DNA of 29,281 bases. Source: a virus. The stretch covers positions 1 through 29,281 of the IMG/VR virus record IMGVR_UViG_3300025853_000474; one strand, 5' to 3'. This document shows, in pieces, positions 11,584-28,195 of this stretch. Below the pieces are notes generated by a model. That model saw only the letters and a program-made list of their open reading frames with translations, was not told the origin of the DNA and ran no database searches. How positions within the stretch are numbered: position 1 is the stretch's first letter; every line of letters starts with the position of its first letter. The position numbers and the translations under genes were made by a program.

Positions 11584-12354
11584 TCACGCCGCTATCTCAG
11601 TATAGTTCGGATTTTGGTTTGGAGCAATGTTTGAATACGCGGGTGTTTGCGCTGGAGATATTCCCACATAATTCGGATTTTGGTTTGGAATAATGAGGTC
11701 GTAAACATTTACTGAGCTAATTTCACCTGTCGCTTCAACGCCTGTTACAGCTACATTAGCATCAGCAAAAATAGTAACGGATCCCACCGCGCCCGTCGCC
11801 TCTACGCCCGTTACCGCGACATTAGCATCAGCAGAAATAGTAACCGCGCCTACTGCGCCCGTTGCAGATACGCCCGTAACAGATACGTTAGCATCAGCGG
11901 AAATAGTAACGGAACCCACCGCGCCCGTCGCCTCTACACCCGTAACGGTAACGGTAACGCCCGACCCTTCGATTATAGTAACGGACCCAACCGCAGTTGC
12001 GGCAGTTTCACCCGTTACCGCAACATTAGCTTCCGTAGAAATAGTAACTGTACCAACAGCACCCGTTGCAGCTTCACCCGTAACAGCTACATTGGCATCT
12101 GCCGTAATAACAACTGTACCAACGGCACCCGTGGCAGCTTCGCCCGTTACTGCGACATTAGCCGCAGTTGAAACCTCTACGGTAGACCCATTACCGACAG
12201 CGGTGGTAGCCTCGTTCCCAATGAGGCCAACATTTGCTTCACCGGAAATCCCAACACTGCCAACTGCACCTGTGGCGGAAAGACCTACAAGGACCGCAAT
12301 CTGTTCGTCGTCATCACCTAACGGGGTCGAACCTAATGCGGAAAAACCTAACAT
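11584..12354 (-). CDS. 22-residue tandem-repeat tail protein (256 aa)
   Basis: The ATG overlaps the stop of the 59-residue gene (TGATG). After a short N-terminal segment (MLGFSALGSTPLGDDDEQ) come about nine copies of a 22-residue unit of the form ANVAVTGVEATGAVGSVTIS, predicted to be beta strands in a regular stack. Then a 37-residue tail with three copies of an 11-residue unit (NQNPNY, AQTPAY, NQNPNY, spaced by IxP). There are no charged catalytic residues. It is probably an elongated fibre or a surface-exposed spacer. The position after a fibre and its small partner supports a tail-fibre role. Similar repeat proteins appear familiar from marine phages, but I cannot name a family. Confidence 0.82.
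   Translation of the reverse strand: MLGFSALGSTPLGDDDEQIAVLVGLSATGAVGSVGISGEANVGLIGNEATTAVGNGSTVEVSTAANVAVTGEAATGAVGTVVITADANVAVTGEAATGAVGTVTISTEANVAVTGETAATAVGSVTIIEGSGVTVTVTGVEATGAVGSVTISADANVSVTGVSATGAVGAVTISADANVAVTGVEATGAVGSVTIFADANVAVTGVEATGEISSVNVYDLIIPNQNPNYVGISPAQTPAYSNIAPNQNPNYTEIAA
11587..11697 (-). repeat. C-terminal 11-residue repeat (NQNPNY)
   Basis: Three consecutive copies of I-x-P-x-Q-x-P-x-Y-x-x at the end of the 256-residue protein. The first and third share the DNA string attcggattttggtttgga at about 11608 and 11671. It is likely a short terminal fold or trimerisation/assembly tag. Confidence 0.8.
11698..12297 (-). repeat. 66-bp in-frame tandem repeat (about nine units)
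   Basis: Coding tandem repeat of 66 bases (22 codons). The consensus protein unit is ANVAVTGxxATGAVGxVTIS(A/T)(D/E). Two units are longer by a few codons (around the GNGSTVEV and IIEGSGVT segments). The copies near 11.74-11.94 kb are the most similar to each other. The in-frame unit length, lack of palindromes and variation at third positions show it is a protein repeat, not a CRISPR or origin iteron array. Confidence 0.93.
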
Positions 12355-12535: not shown

Positions 12536-13633
12536 TTATAATTCCGCATCAATGTAAATAGCTGTGCTACCTGCAAGTTTAGATAGCCAACCACTATAAC
12601 CACTTATCGTGTTTCCAGTACCTACACCTATATCTACTCTACAGTTTTGATCATTTATACTTGAAGCTCCTATAGATGTAAGTGTGCGGTTGTTGCCATC
12701 TGTTCTGTAACGGAAATCAGAGGCAACGCCAACAAATGTAATCGTAGGGGTTGAGCGTTTTTCTACTTTCCAGTCAAGAGAACCATATGCGGCTGCAGTT
12801 GAAAACGACGTAGCAACACAGATTATATCCTTGCCGTCTTTTATGCTTTCAAAATACCTCAAGCACCTCGCCAGTTCATCCCCATAGCTTCTGTGCTCGA
12901 AGGGGGTGGCGGTGTCGCCTACTTCTAGTTGGACACCTGTGATTTGCCAGTAGTTAGATGTGCTGTCCGCTAGATTAACATTACCAACATAACGATTAGC
13001 ATCTGCGTATGCTTGCCATGTGGTAGCTAAAGTACCAGACGTGTAATCTGACCCAGCAGCCAAAACAAACTCAAGTTGTATTGACACTCCATTATCGTTA
13101 GTGAAGCCCGATATAGTGTCTCCATCAATTGTTAAGGCTTTATACTCCCATGTATCTGCGGCATCTACTGTGTATGCTTTTGCAATTTGACGGGCTGCAT
13201 CATTATTATAAAACCAAGCAATATAAGTACCTGTTTTGTTTGACTTTACCCAAAAAGAAAGTGTCAAATTTTTTGCATTAGACGTCCCAAACGCTGTTTG
13301 TTGTAAATCTTGGCCTTCAAGTCTAGTCATTAAGCGCAGAGAGTGATTTGCGCCTAAAGAAGGGGCTGCCGTAGTTACTGCAATTTTATATGATGAGGCA
13401 AAGCCGTCTGGAGCAGAGGTGTCTTGCGTTACATCTGTAACAAAAGAGATGGAGCCACCTTCACTCCATCGCCATCTGTCAAGAGTATAACCAGAATTTC
13501 CGTCTGTAAGTCCTGTAAAACTCGTCCCACGCTGCGCCACTTGCATAGCACCATTGATAATCAGGTTCCTGTTCGACAAGGCACCACCGTCATAGACGTT
13601 ACCAAGATTTGCAAGTTGTCTTGCCTTGCTCAT
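12536..13633 (-). CDS. Tail fibre with carbohydrate-binding-like domain (365 aa), copy 2
   Basis: Starts MSKARQLANLGNVYDGGALS and has the phage fibre signature LSNRNLIINGAMQVAQRG at 20-37. A jelly-roll-like region follows with NLTLSFWVKSNKTGTY (about 124-139) and ADTWEYKALTIDGDT, then the well-known VQLEVGDTATPFEHRSYGDE and ARCLRYFE (about 235-263), and a C-terminal beta domain unlike that of copy 1. The family is thought to bind surface polysaccharide. It is the same length as its paralogue at 17542-18639, and the two are most alike in the first 265 residues. The C-terminal ends diverge, as expected for receptor-binding parts. Confidence 0.87.
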   Translation of the reverse strand: MSKARQLANLGNVYDGGALSNRNLIINGAMQVAQRGTSFTGLTDGNSGYTLDRWRWSEGGSISFVTDVTQDTSAPDGFASSYKIAVTTAAPSLGANHSLRLMTRLEGQDLQQTAFGTSNAKNLTLSFWVKSNKTGTYIAWFYNNDAARQIAKAYTVDAADTWEYKALTIDGDTISGFTNDNGVSIQLEFVLAAGSDYTSGTLATTWQAYADANRYVGNVNLADSTSNYWQITGVQLEVGDTATPFEHRSYGDELARCLRYFESIKDGKDIICVATSFSTAAAYGSLDWKVEKRSTPTITFVGVASDFRYRTDGNNRTLTSIGASSINDQNCRVDIGVGTGNTISGYSGWLSKLAGSTAIYIDAEL

Positions 13634-17541: not shown

Positions 17542-18639
17542 TTAAAGCTCCGCAGACAAGTCAAACCTAGTTTTATAAGCTGAATTATTATACCAAATAG
17601 CCGGTCTACCACCTGTCGTAGAAGTGGTAACTGTACCGTCAAGTTCAACAATTTTACTATTTGAATAATTGCCGCCAATTGTGCCAGTAAAGGTATAGGT
17701 GGCGATGCCATCATAAAGTTGATTATGCCCTGATGTGCCTATTGATGTTAATGTAATTGTAGGAGTTGACCTCATCTCAACTGGGAGTATTGCACCATTT
17801 CGTCCAAAGTTTGAACCTGTTGCCATTGTTCCTTTAAGCTGTAGAGGTTCATATCTTTGAAAGTACCTCTGGCACCTCGCCAGTTCATCCCCGTATGACC
17901 GATGCTCGAAGGGGGTGGCTGTGTCCCCGATTTCCAACTGGACGCCTGTCAGTTGCCATGTGGCACCTGATGTTGCTAAAATCTTAACTCCACCAGTTAA
18001 CCCATATTTGGAGTATGTTCCATCTTGTGTCCATGTGTTTAATGTATTGGAACGGGATGACCCTTCTCCCAGATCAAAAATTAAACCTGCCCCAACAGTG
18101 TTGTTTATAGGAAATTGAGTTGTTCCGCCACTAGTGAGGCCAGACACAGTAACCGTTTTATACTCCCACGTACTTGCGGAATTGACCGTATACGAAGATA
18201 CATAATAATAATCTAGTCCTGACGTGAACCCAACGCCAAAAGTTCCTGTAACCGAGCTTTTTACCCAAAAGGAAAGTGTTACATCTTTTGCATCAGAAAA
18301 CCCCCAACGCATTTGCGCCCAATTGTAACCTTCTATGGCGCTAAAAACACGACCATATTCTGTACTTGCGGGAGTCGCCCCAGTTCCAACGGTCAGCTTG
18401 ATAGACTTTGTAAAACCAGAGGGGGCATCAGAAACTACTTGAACAGTAGAGCCACTTGAAACGTTACCCCAAACTTTAAATCGATCTGCACTAAATGCAG
18501 CTGAACCAGACAGCGTATAAGCGGCACCACCATTGCGTTGGTCCACAATCATGGCACCATTAATAATAACATTCCTGTTCGACAAGGCAGACCCAGAAAA
18601 AACACCAGCTAATTGAGCAAGTTCTGATTGGTTACTCAT
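17542..18639 (-). CDS. Tail fibre with carbohydrate-binding-like domain (365 aa), copy 1
   Basis: Starts MSNQSELAQLAGVFSGSALS and has LSNRNVIINGAMIVDQRN, then DVTLSFWVKSSVTGTFGV, STWEYKTVTVSG and WQLTGVQLEIGDTATPFEHR with YGDELARCQRYF. All blocks are shared in the same order with the copy at 12536-13633. The C-terminal 100 residues are different (RNGAILPVEMRSTPTITL...). This is a tail fibre or receptor-binding protein; polysaccharide binding is known for the type, not shown here. The start overlaps the 114-residue gene (TAATG). Confidence 0.88.
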   Translation of the reverse strand: MSNQSELAQLAGVFSGSALSNRNVIINGAMIVDQRNGGAAYTLSGSAAFSADRFKVWGNVSSGSTVQVVSDAPSGFTKSIKLTVGTGATPASTEYGRVFSAIEGYNWAQMRWGFSDAKDVTLSFWVKSSVTGTFGVGFTSGLDYYYVSSYTVNSASTWEYKTVTVSGLTSGGTTQFPINNTVGAGLIFDLGEGSSRSNTLNTWTQDGTYSKYGLTGGVKILATSGATWQLTGVQLEIGDTATPFEHRSYGDELARCQRYFQRYEPLQLKGTMATGSNFGRNGAILPVEMRSTPTITLTSIGTSGHNQLYDGIATYTFTGTIGGNYSNSKIVELDGTVTTSTTGGRPAIWYNNSAYKTRFDLSAEL

Positions 18640-24614: not shown

Positions 24615-25526
24615 TTACGCTCCGGGGGAACCGAAAACACAGCGAGGATCAGAAAATCCAAAGCTGTAGCGTTCACGAGCCTTAAAGCGCATGTTTCCTG
24701 TGTCAAAGTCCGCTTCCATGTTAGTTGACAACGGAGTACGCTCAAAGTGGATGAAACCACGTGGCGCGTCTGTTTTGATGAAAAACGCATCTGGATCCGT
24801 TAGGAAGTCGTTGACGGCATAGCCTTCAGGCAACATTCCCATTGAACGGATTGCGTTTACATCGTTGTCCGCTGTGCCAACACGAAGGTTAGACACCATC
24901 AAACGTTCTGCAACGAACTGTAGTTGACGTGGAATAATCAACTTCATGCCGCGTAGTGCGACCTTCAAACCACGCTCGTCAACAAAACCTGCGATGTTGA
25001 TAAGGGCATCTTCAAGAGATGTCTCATTCAAATCCGCAGCAGTTGTTGGTTCGTTGGCAAATGTACCACCTGAAGTAAGTGGGTGGTCAGTTGCACACAA
25101 TGCAACACCATCACCACCAGCAGATGCGCCAGCAGTAAAGGCATTGTTAAGAACCGCAGCGGCCTTAACTTGTTTTGTGTGTGCCATTGAACGAGCCAAC
25201 GCACGAGTATACCGCGAACCAAGACGATCATAAAGATTGTCTTCGATAGCTTCCTCTGTTATAGAGAATGCAAGCGCGATAGTTTCGTGGTTATAACGAG
25301 CAGTATATGCCTCGTTAGCATCGTCGAAGTTTACAGCAGAACCTTCCGATTTGGTTGGTGCCGCGCCGAAACCACTCAACATAACTTCCTCTTCAAATGC
25401 ACGATCTGAAGATTCAGTGGTGTATACCTCTGCATGTTGGTTTTCGTACCTATTGTACTCCATACCAAACAAGGCGTTGAGGCCGGGTTCCAACTCTTTC
25501 GCTAGTTGTGCGCGAGAGATAGCCAT
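24615..25526 (-). CDS. Major capsid protein, HK97-fold / Mu gpT-like (303 aa)
   Basis: N-terminal MAISRAQLAKELEPGLNALF, then YENQHAEVYTTESSDRAFEE and FSITEEAIEDNLYDRLGSRY (about 93-112), HTKQVKAAAVLNNAFTAG and a P-domain-like stretch with TDHPLTSGGTFANEPTTAAD. The C-terminal part has RGMKLIIPRQLQFVAERLMV and FIKTDAPRGFIHFERTPLST. This matches major capsid proteins of many marine phages, related to the Mu gpT group. A strong SD and a following terminator suggest very high expression. It follows a scaffold and a decoration-like gene, as expected. Confidence 0.87.
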   Translation of the reverse strand: MAISRAQLAKELEPGLNALFGMEYNRYENQHAEVYTTESSDRAFEEEVMLSGFGAAPTKSEGSAVNFDDANEAYTARYNHETIALAFSITEEAIEDNLYDRLGSRYTRALARSMAHTKQVKAAAVLNNAFTAGASAGGDGVALCATDHPLTSGGTFANEPTTAADLNETSLEDALINIAGFVDERGLKVALRGMKLIIPRQLQFVAERLMVSNLRVGTADNDVNAIRSMGMLPEGYAVNDFLTDPDAFFIKTDAPRGFIHFERTPLSTNMEADFDTGNMRFKARERYSFGFSDPRCVFGSPGA

Positions 25527-25533
25527 TAGTTAG

Positions 25534-25540
25534 CCTCCTT
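25534..25540 (-). promoter_or_regulatory. Strong ribosome binding site of the capsid gene
   Basis: AAGGAGG seven bases before the capsid ATG, overlapping the stop of the upstream gene. It fixes the start at 25526 and allows coupled, strong translation. Confidence 0.85.
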
Positions 25541-26174
25541 ATACGCCAGTTGTCGATGGAGTACCAGCAACAATCGCACCATTCGGTGAGTTGAAGCTGT
25601 TATTCAATCGAACGATGAGTGGGATACCAGCGGCTGTAAAGTCTTGGTTTTCTGGGTCATCTTGAATCCCCATAATACGCAAGTGCAATGCAGCAGTGGT
25701 GGCGATTGTGCTAACACCCAACTTGGCAGATGAGATACCCGTGGTCGTTGAACCAGAAGTAGCCGTTGCAAAGTTAGCGTTTGCAAACACATGTCCACGC
25801 GCAGTTGCTTCGCTAGTCAGTGAAGCATCTGAACAAATAACAAATGTCTGCATTGGGTTGTCATACACAAAGGCTTTGACGGGATGATTTGAATCCGCGC
25901 CAGAACCGGGCCAGTAGTTAGAAAAAACTTTCTCACCAGTAGTGGACGAAACGTATTCGCAGCCCCAGAATACACCAACAAGTCCTACCGTGCCACCAGC
26001 AGCCGCGCCAACAATGTCAATAAAGCCTGTTGACAGCGGGATTACGGGTGAACCTTGGTAAATCGCGTTAGTGTTTCCAGAGGCAATACGATACTCGGTC
26101 GCACCAGTGGTGTTCGCAGCCTGACCGACTACGCCAATCGGACGAAGTCCGAATGCACCGTTAGTGTTTGCCAT
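25539..26174 (-). CDS. Probable capsid decoration / head protein (211 aa)
   Basis: Starts MANTNGAFGLRPIGVVGQAA, and continues with GATEYRIASGNTNAIYQGSP, FWGCEYVSSTTGEKVFSNYW, and ALHLRIMGIQDDPENQDFTA. The 'NGAFGLRPIG' start and FxGCxYxS pattern are typical of a protein encoded just before the major capsid gene in marine phages. It is likely a head decoration or second head protein. An SD (AGAGGA) lies ten bases upstream. It is beta-rich, with no transmembrane segments. Confidence 0.78.
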   Translation of the reverse strand: MANTNGAFGLRPIGVVGQAANTTGATEYRIASGNTNAIYQGSPVIPLSTGFIDIVGAAAGGTVGLVGVFWGCEYVSSTTGEKVFSNYWPGSGADSNHPVKAFVYDNPMQTFVICSDASLTSEATARGHVFANANFATATSGSTTTGISSAKLGVSTIATTAALHLRIMGIQDDPENQDFTAAGIPLIVRLNNSFNSPNGAIVAGTPSTTGV

Positions 26175-26192
26175 AGTAGCAATCCTCTAAGT

Positions 26193-26654
26193 TTATCCGG
26201 AGTCGCGTTCGCGGCCTCCGAAGGTTACACGACTTTGCCTACTATTACTTATAGGCATTGAAGGATGTTGCTCCTTCATAAGGTCCTGATCTACAGCGGT
26301 CATTTGTTCGCGGGTTCTGCCCCCGTAATATGCAGTACGTTCTGCCACCGTTTCAACAGGTATACGGCACAGCATCAGTCCTCCTTGTCCAATCACCCCC
26401 TCATATCGACCTTCGTCGATAGTCGGAGCCTCATAGTCTGGATACTCATCTTTCCGGACAGGTTCCCATCCTTCACGTAGCTTGGAATTGACGTTCATTT
26501 TGTCTTCCTCGCCACGCATAGCGACTCGAATCCAACGATGCACAAACCCATCAGGTGGAGTTGGTGCCTCAAGATGACTGGGCGGTGCCCATGGTTTTCT
26601 GCGCGTTTCTTTTTCGCGGGTTTCACTCTTACGAGTAGTGCGGGTATCAGCCAT
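26193..26654 (-). CDS. Conserved head-module protein of unknown function (153 aa)
   Basis: Basic N-terminus (MADTRTTRKSETREKETRRK), then WAPPSHLEAPTPPDGFVHRW, an REGWEPV segment (about 60-66), a VIGQGGLMLCRIPVE segment and a C-terminal MPISNSRQSRVTFGGRERD. This type is found between scaffold and capsid genes in marine phages. The role is not known; it might assist assembly or be a minor head protein. Confidence 0.77.
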   Translation of the reverse strand: MADTRTTRKSETREKETRRKPWAPPSHLEAPTPPDGFVHRWIRVAMRGEEDKMNVNSKLREGWEPVRKDEYPDYEAPTIDEGRYEGVIGQGGLMLCRIPVETVAERTAYYGGRTREQMTAVDQDLMKEQHPSMPISNSRQSRVTFGGRERDSG

Positions 26655-26657
26655 GTC

Positions 26658-27542
26658 TCAATCCTTCACGTATTTAGCATATTCTTCAAGCGGCACGTTT
26701 AAACGTTTCGCCATCGCAACTTGTGATGGTGAGAGCTTCACCGACTTGCGCCCCTGTTTTGCAGTAGTGCGGGTAGCTGAAGCGCCAGCAGGTGCGACCT
26801 GTGCTCCACCCGATTTCTTCGTCTGAAACTTCTGCGGAAACTCCGCACGAATACGACGATCAAGTTCAGTATAGTACGAGTCGTCGTTTGGGTCAAACCC
26901 CTCTTCTTCGACAAGTTTACGGTGTAGACCAAACGCAGCATATGTCATAACCTCGTCAGATCCAAACCAATCATTTTTTTGAGCCCACGCCTCCGCTCTA
27001 GGGTCCGGCCTGCTTTGCGGTTGCGCAGCAGGTGCAGCCTGTGAAACGGGAACCTCTGGCTGTTGTGTGCGGGACTGCGCACGAGATTGCGCCATCCGCA
27101 AACGCTCGGACTCAATAGCCATTTGAGACAACTTCTGTTGCGCCTCAAACATTTTATCCGCTTCCCCAGCCTCATATGCTTCACGATACTCACGTTTCGC
27201 TTGCTCTATTTGAGACTCAATCCGACCACCAAACTCCGTAAGATAACCTTTATCCAAGCTTTCCACACGAGACTGAAGCTTTTTATTCTCAGCAATTAAA
27301 TGCTCGGCAAGCCGCGCCGCTTCTTCTTTTGCTTTTTCTTCGTCACGATACTTGCGGGTTAGTTGGTTGATCCGTTTTTGAACCTTGTTGTTGTAGTCTT
27401 CAACTTCATCATCCGACCTAGCCGCTGTGTCCGCTTCAAAATCAAGTTGCTCTTGAGGCGCTTCTTCGGATGTCTCAACCTCAACTTCGACATCTTCCTC
27501 AATGTCTTTTACATCTTCTTCCATTGTAATATCCTCAGACAT
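26658..27542 (-). CDS. Capsid scaffold / head assembly protein (294 aa)
   Basis: Very acidic N-terminus (EEDVKDIEEDVEVEVETSEE), then a long coiled coil from about residue 45 to 165 (KYRDEEKAKEEAARLAEHLI), a Pro/Gln/Ala linker (QQPEVPVSQAAPAAQPQSR), a helical C-terminal part and a basic tail with KSVKLSPSQVAMAKRLNVPL. An acidic, coiled-coil protein with a basic C-terminus encoded before the capsid gene is the usual scaffold. Eight-base overlap with the co-chaperonin gene. Confidence 0.82.
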   Translation of the reverse strand: MSEDITMEEDVKDIEEDVEVEVETSEEAPQEQLDFEADTAARSDDEVEDYNNKVQKRINQLTRKYRDEEKAKEEAARLAEHLIAENKKLQSRVESLDKGYLTEFGGRIESQIEQAKREYREAYEAGEADKMFEAQQKLSQMAIESERLRMAQSRAQSRTQQPEVPVSQAAPAAQPQSRPDPRAEAWAQKNDWFGSDEVMTYAAFGLHRKLVEEEGFDPNDDSYYTELDRRIRAEFPQKFQTKKSGGAQVAPAGASATRTTAKQGRKSVKLSPSQVAMAKRLNVPLEEYAKYVKD

Positions 27543-28008
27543 GTTTCACATCATCAGGATCAAAAATAGTAGCGATAACTTCGTCGTCGTTAAGAATACG
27601 AACTTCGCCCCCATCAATTTTAAATCTTGATCCTGAATACCTACCAATACAAACCCACTGGCCTTCCTTACACCACGGCTTGTCTCCAAACCGCTCAACA
27701 TCAGAATAAGCCATAGGCCCGACCTTGAGAACGTAAGCAACCACTGTGGCAATACTTTCACGTTCTCTGACTTCTTCCGGAACATAAAGTCCCCCGGAAG
27801 TTTTTTGTTTGCCCTGATATGGCATAACTAAAATCCGCCAACCCGTGGGTTGCGGAAGCCGTTCAAGTAGCGATTTGTCCAGAAGAGAGGGCTCTAACAC
27901 CCTGTTATTAGCGTCAACATACGCGCTATCAATAGAAGAAGACTGCTCTTGTCTTTCTTTATTCATTTTTTGCGCGACGTGATCAGGAAGATATAAAGTC
28001 TTCGACAT
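27535..28008 (-). CDS. GroES-like (Cpn10) co-chaperonin (157 aa)
   Basis: Residues about 51-150 follow the GroES fold: PTGWRILVMPYQGKQKTSGG (54-73), a mobile-loop-like KTSGGLYVPE (69-78) comparable with the KSAGGIVLTG loop of GroES, VAYVLKVGPMAY, KPWCKEGQWVCIGRYSG and VRILNDDEVIATI at the end. GroES caps GroEL; phage versions (T4 gp31) help fold capsid proteins. A 50-residue N-terminal extension is unusual. It overlaps the previous gene by 26 bases and the scaffold gene by eight, tying it to head assembly. Confidence 0.82.
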   Translation of the reverse strand: MSKTLYLPDHVAQKMNKERQEQSSSIDSAYVDANNRVLEPSLLDKSLLERLPQPTGWRILVMPYQGKQKTSGGLYVPEEVRERESIATVVAYVLKVGPMAYSDVERFGDKPWCKEGQWVCIGRYSGSRFKIDGGEVRILNDDEVIATIFDPDDVKHV

Positions 28009-28195
28009 CTTCGTCAGCGTTCTCCAGCAGGGCTTTTAACTCTTCTCGTGCATAGGAGAGGCCCCGTATCTCCCCAACGAGCAATTTGTACTCATGAAAG
28101 TCTTTTGCCACATCATGAGCAAGCGCGTCAGCTATTTCATCCTGACGTTGTTTTAAGACTTTATACATAAATTGCGCAAATGCAATAGCATCCAT
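27983..28195 (-). CDS. Small helical protein (70 aa)
   Basis: Starts MDAIAFAQFMYKVLKQRQDE, with YKLLVGEIRGLSYAREELKA and an acidic C-terminus. Entirely helical in appearance. Coupled to the cysteine protein by TAATG and overlapping the co-chaperonin start. 'YxxLVGxIxGLxxAxxEL' is reminiscent of small phage head-tail proteins, but no function is assigned. Confidence 0.78.
   Translation of the reverse strand: MDAIAFAQFMYKVLKQRQDEIADALAHDVAKDFHEYKLLVGEIRGLSYAREELKALLENADEDVEDFISS

Follow-up and report, generated by a model that had tools for sequence, protein, structure and literature searches.

Organization of the head gene module

The window, by which we mean the whole 29,281-base stretch analysed here, is a virus fragment. 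The source phage is marine or freshwater and is most likely a podovirus-like relative of the HTVC023P-type phages, a group that is defined by PolA phylogeny, while the genes identified in this fragment are of virion type only. A run of head genes is located on one strand and includes small genes, groES, a 294-aa scaffold candidate, proteins of 153 aa and 211 aa, and the 303-aa major capsid protein (MCP) (Table 1). The order groES, scaffold, small gene, small gene, MCP is that of the HTVC023P-type relatives.

Table 1. Features of the groES region, with positions in the window.
Feature	Position	Strand	Evidence or remark
groES-like co-chaperonin gene, 157 aa	27535..28008	minus	ATG start; Pfam, PHROG, PDB sequence and structure matches
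N-terminal arm, residues 1-52	27853..28008	minus	pN/pS by segment; low pLDDT
Cpn10/GroES domain, residues 53-148	27565..27852	minus	PF00166, 39.8 bits; same place in DNA search
Mobile loop, residues 65-79 (QGKQKTSGGLYVPEE), tripeptide LYV	27772..27816	minus	Alignment with E. coli GroES
C-terminal tail, residues 149-157 (FDPDDVKHV)	27538..27564	minus	Longer than E. coli GroES tail
Putative scaffolding protein, 294 aa, acidic	26658..27542	minus	PHROG matches, position
Major capsid protein (MCP), 303 aa, 33.0 kDa	24615..25526	minus	PF25209 Phage_capsid_4, 1.7e-12; phrog_371 major head protein
70-aa ORF, small-gene slot between portal and groES	27983..28195	minus	Overlaps groES start by 26 nt

The groES open reading frame had been reported in an earlier note made from the sequence alone, and both its ends are exact; it lies on the minus strand and begins with ATG. 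Use of this first ATG is supported by a GGAG-type motif upstream and by the invariance of residues 1-8 in 30 relatives, which is itself partly due to the 26-nt overlap with the upstream gene. The same note described an overlap with the scaffold gene. The overlap of the groES stop with the start of the downstream gene is real and is 8 nt long (ATGTCTGA), and a scaffold identity for the 294-aa neighbour is plausible from its position, its acidic composition and a weak match to phrog_8865 (head scaffolding, only E 0.03); it also matches phrog_28737 (unknown function, 5e-70).

Two further features of the window lie outside the head genes. Two 365-aa tail-fibre-like paralogues (12536-13633 and 17542-18639, both minus) share 41% identity over 316 columns and are located in an array of small fibre-like genes, which suggests, from sequence, a duplication in the host-recognition region. 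A 256-aa protein (11584-12354, minus) is composed of 22-residue repeats encoded by 66-bp tandem units (about 79% matches); it has no PHROG match, and variation in repeat length is possible.

The groES product belongs to the GroES family

The protein matches PF00166 (Cpn10) with 39.8 bits against a cut-off of 21.1 (E 4.7e-10), residues 53-148 aligning to profile positions 3-93 of 93, and phrog_3188 'co-chaperonin GroES' with E 9.3e-16 over residues 52-148. Solved GroES/Cpn20 chains are matched by sequence with phmmer and more strongly with a profile of the family, and no gp31 chain appears among the family-profile matches at E <= 0.01. In a diverse family alignment Cpn10 is matched by all members (79/79), and none of them matches a different Pfam family. 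NCBIfam GroES models also match, with scores below their own cut-offs, as expected because the window GroES is a divergent member.

An AlphaFold model built on the alignment of 79 diverse relatives has a mean pLDDT of 78.4, with about 84-93 in the core; a model built on the alignment of close relatives, which is too shallow (mean pLDDT 44.6), was set aside. Foldseek searches with the core give E-values down to 1.6e-7, and the structures ranked highest are the GroES lids of GroEL-GroES complexes. With VIA-align the core superimposes on the GroES of H. thermoluteolus (8wuc_a) with Z 10.7 (91 residues, rmsd 2.8 A, 28% identity) and on E. coli GroES (1aon) with Z 8.5, whereas the gp31-type structures 2cgt (Z 8.0 over 71 residues) and 1g31 (Z 7.3 over 89) share only 8-10% identity. 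The prediction of a Cpn10 fold is thus borne out by the model, and in these comparisons GroES ranks above T4 gp31, the co-chaperonin named in the earlier note. The model also resembles medium-chain dehydrogenase domains weakly (Z about 6), through the GroES-like barrel that these enzymes are known to contain.

Among viral structure models, those nearest to the window protein are entries of 139-155 aa named 'Co-chaperonin GroES [uncultured virus]'. These presumably come from a study by Marine et al. (2017, ISME J 11:2479; cited in PMC7185714 and PMC5934643), which reportedly dealt with the chaperonins of virioplankton.

Within the close clade pN/pS for the Cpn10 core is 0.098, and the barrel, the roof segment and the mobile loop are all under strong purifying selection (pN/pS about 0.1); a chance open reading frame is ruled out by these values. 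Taking profile matches and modelled fold together, we regard the assignment of the 27535-28008 product to the GroES family of co-chaperonins as secure.

Mobile loop and roof

The motif KTSGGLYVPE, noted earlier as resembling a mobile loop, is indeed at the GroES mobile-loop position (residues 69-78). KTSGGLYV aligns with KSAGGIVL of E. coli, such that LYV takes the place of the hydrophobic tripeptide IVL. The tripeptide was compared across 313 distinct relatives: its first position is hydrophobic in every one (313/313) and its third in 282/313, and 42/313 have the IVL of E. coli. Directly after the loop there are four residues more than in E. coli GroES, close to a short helix predicted by AlphaFold at 78-86. 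The gp31 loop is 22 residues long compared to 16 in GroES (PMC6318259), and the parallel with the longer loop region seen here is suggestive only. The roof segment PMAYSDVERFGDKPWCKEG is present by alignment, slightly longer than in GroES, and conserved, and its PWC motif is nearly invariant.

The window protein thus shares with bacterial GroES (E. coli; H. thermoluteolus 8wuc) the fold and a mobile loop with a hydrophobic tripeptide, and differs from E. coli GroES in the extra 52-residue arm, the four residues that follow the loop, and about nine C-terminal residues. T4 gp31 and RB49 CocO are phage-encoded GroEL lids with a head protein as the likely client, as the window protein would be, and their structural match is weaker than that of GroES. 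Roof loops are missing from gp31, and the capsid protein that it serves has a mass of 56 kDa (PMC6318259), whereas here the roof segment is kept and the MCP is 33 kDa.

The N-terminal arm

The roughly 50 extra N-terminal residues described previously amount to 52 ahead of the Cpn10 domain, and they are not special to this protein. Nearly all of the 351 relatives with a recognisable P-x-G-W motif have 46-59 residues before the motif; in more distant family members the arm is shorter or almost absent. Its sequence has no recognisable conservation between clades, and MSKTLYLPDHVAQK at the protein start is that of the window's own clade.

Selection on the arm is uneven. In the close clade pN/pS is 0.11 for residues 9-18, 0.66 for a fast-evolving linker at 19-28, and 0.16 for residues 29-52, so that purifying selection acts on part of the arm. 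The lack of variation in residues 1-8 is weak evidence, because this stretch lies in the overlap with the upstream gene and has a low synonymous rate as well. In the AlphaFold model pLDDT is about 48-58 up to residue 40, with a possible, low-confidence helix at 9-21. The arm is thus an addition to the lid, a peptide conserved in part and carried on a flexible linker, and it probably tunes the lid, for example by touching the client, the scaffold or the cage.

groES is tied to one capsid family

The 13 published core genes of the HTVC023P-type pelagiphages include GroES (PMC9599517), and the gene is an established component of this large phage group; the view that a co-chaperonin is unusual in a phage is outdated for this lineage. 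It is also annotated in Roseobacter phages CRP-901 and CRP-902 (PMC10149686), in Planktothrix/Synechococcus phages, and in Caulobacter phages. The HTVC023P-type proteins (HTVC027P gp55 and HTVC023P gp36, with relatives in 023Pt_psg01 and DSL-LC04) have the same Cpn10 domain, are 146-155 aa long and carry an N-terminal arm, and their genes lie between portal and scaffold as in the window. The MCPs of HTVC023P, HTVC027P and 023Pt_psg01 are 69-73% identical to that of the window; in contrast, GroES identity is only 44-53%, and the arm sequences are not recognisably alike.

We retrieved viral contigs by their MCP alone and kept loci with at least 4 kb upstream (n=30). In 30/30 of these groES is located about 2.0 kb upstream of the MCP gene, although they represent one lineage and not 30 independent events. 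All fetched loci having the three genes (405/405) have the order groES, scaffold, MCP. A Cpn10 protein is encoded in 14 of 15 scanned annotated phage records with a related MCP, and the exception is a 10.8-kb fragment. From local gene order the most distant complete records, vir526 and ct7ZZ929, had appeared to be capsid relatives without GroES; this is wrong, as in both the gene is outside the head module and still in the genome. In vir526, which is assigned to the Methanomicrobiales (archaea), groS is directly upstream of the terminase gene (L241:2827-3183; BK063670.1 42826-43182).

A tblastn search of a 50,697-record phage collection with two GroES queries, which would not reach all phage GroES, returned mostly members of this phage group; the other matches were to unannotated fragments and to what looks like host DNA. 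Matches in Listeria, Enterococcus and Acinetobacter 'phage' records (OR846807, OR848137, OR846590, CAKLQF020000019 and similar) look like host chromosome and were not counted.

Compared with locus L069, the window has 97.7% identity in the MCP, 80% in the GroES core, and 57% in the scaffold. These steep differences among neighbouring head genes (24615-28008) may reflect recombination or very different constraint. Since the MCP is far more conserved than either GroES or the scaffold in this comparison, the rates show no sign of a close fit between lid and capsid.

A probable phage lid for host GroEL

In the GroEL-GroES system the mobile loops of the lid dock on ATP-bound GroEL and the client is enclosed. 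A search for GroEL in 16 records (the 15 phages with a related MCP and the window) found none, so a host GroEL would be needed as the partner. The window GroES would form a heptameric lid that docks on host GroEL via its mobile loop; the capped chamber would enclose new phage proteins, chiefly the MCP encoded about 2 kb downstream, and the enclosed capsid-module proteins would fold there for head assembly. We consider it probable that the phage lid caps host GroEL while capsid-module proteins, chiefly the MCP, fold, and that the arm tunes the lid. The strict tie to one capsid family supports a client from the capsid module and falls short of proof, and common descent of the head module could by itself account for the co-occurrence of groES with the MCP gene. 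A capsid protein in need of a customised cap, as suggested earlier, is plausible and compatible with the strict co-occurrence.

The size of the client is a counterpoint. In the precedent, T4 gp31 acts with GroEL to fold gp23, a task for which GroES cannot replace it (PMC3012670), and the 56-kDa gp23 slightly exceeds what the normal cage can hold (PMC6318259). The 33.0-kDa MCP of the window fits an ordinary GroEL-GroES cage, so the reason given for T4, a bigger cage, is not transferable, and with an MCP small enough for the host lid the need for a phage lid is not obvious. This would fit a broader role, in which the phage protein takes over from host GroES, or adds to it, in the folding of many proteins of phage and host, for example as host chaperone expression falls, without capsid specificity. 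Chaperone and folding-catalyst genes are among the Pelagibacter genes down-regulated during infection by HTVC027P and HTVC022P (PMC12753301), and T4 gp31 is able to replace GroES for host proteins (PMC3012670). However, a general helper could sit anywhere in the genome, whereas nearly all relatives have groES among their head genes and the gene goes with one capsid family, and at the search sensitivity used it is rarely seen in other phage records; we therefore think a general boost to folding unlikely as the main role.

Placement among the head genes also argues against a decoy, which would cap GroEL without productive folding and so block host folding or a GroEL-dependent defence. The mobile loop, judged by its residues, should bind GroEL and the arm could block the cycle, but strong purifying selection covers the barrel, the roof segment and the loop (pN/pS about 0.1), and the phage depends on host folding for its own proteins; we find a decoy hardly credible. 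Reuse of the GroES fold in head assembly without GroEL, such as in an assembly factor that touches the scaffold via the arm, draws on the 8-nt overlap with the putative scaffold gene and on the conserved arm; it is very improbable given that every relative keeps a hydrophobic residue where the loop would dock on GroEL, which such a role would not require. A distinctly unlikely, more specific proposal for the arm is that it is a built-in client handle, in which the conserved helix (about 9-21) on its fast-evolving linker captures the capsid protein or the scaffold and hands it on to GroEL. If so, phage capsid proteins would get priority in the host folding machine.

To the known presence of groES in this phage group the present analysis adds its near-universal tie to one capsid family, the partial purifying selection on the arm, and the small size of the inferred client. 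It makes testable the question of why a 33-kDa MCP, which fits easily into a normal cage, always comes with a phage lid, given that an oversized client is the accepted reason in T4. HTVC023P-type phages are put at about 7.6% of the reads in ocean viromes (a figure cited in PMC12753301), and with a lineage this abundant a fixed dependence of the capsid module on its own GroEL lid, if true, would be a widespread use of the host chaperonin.
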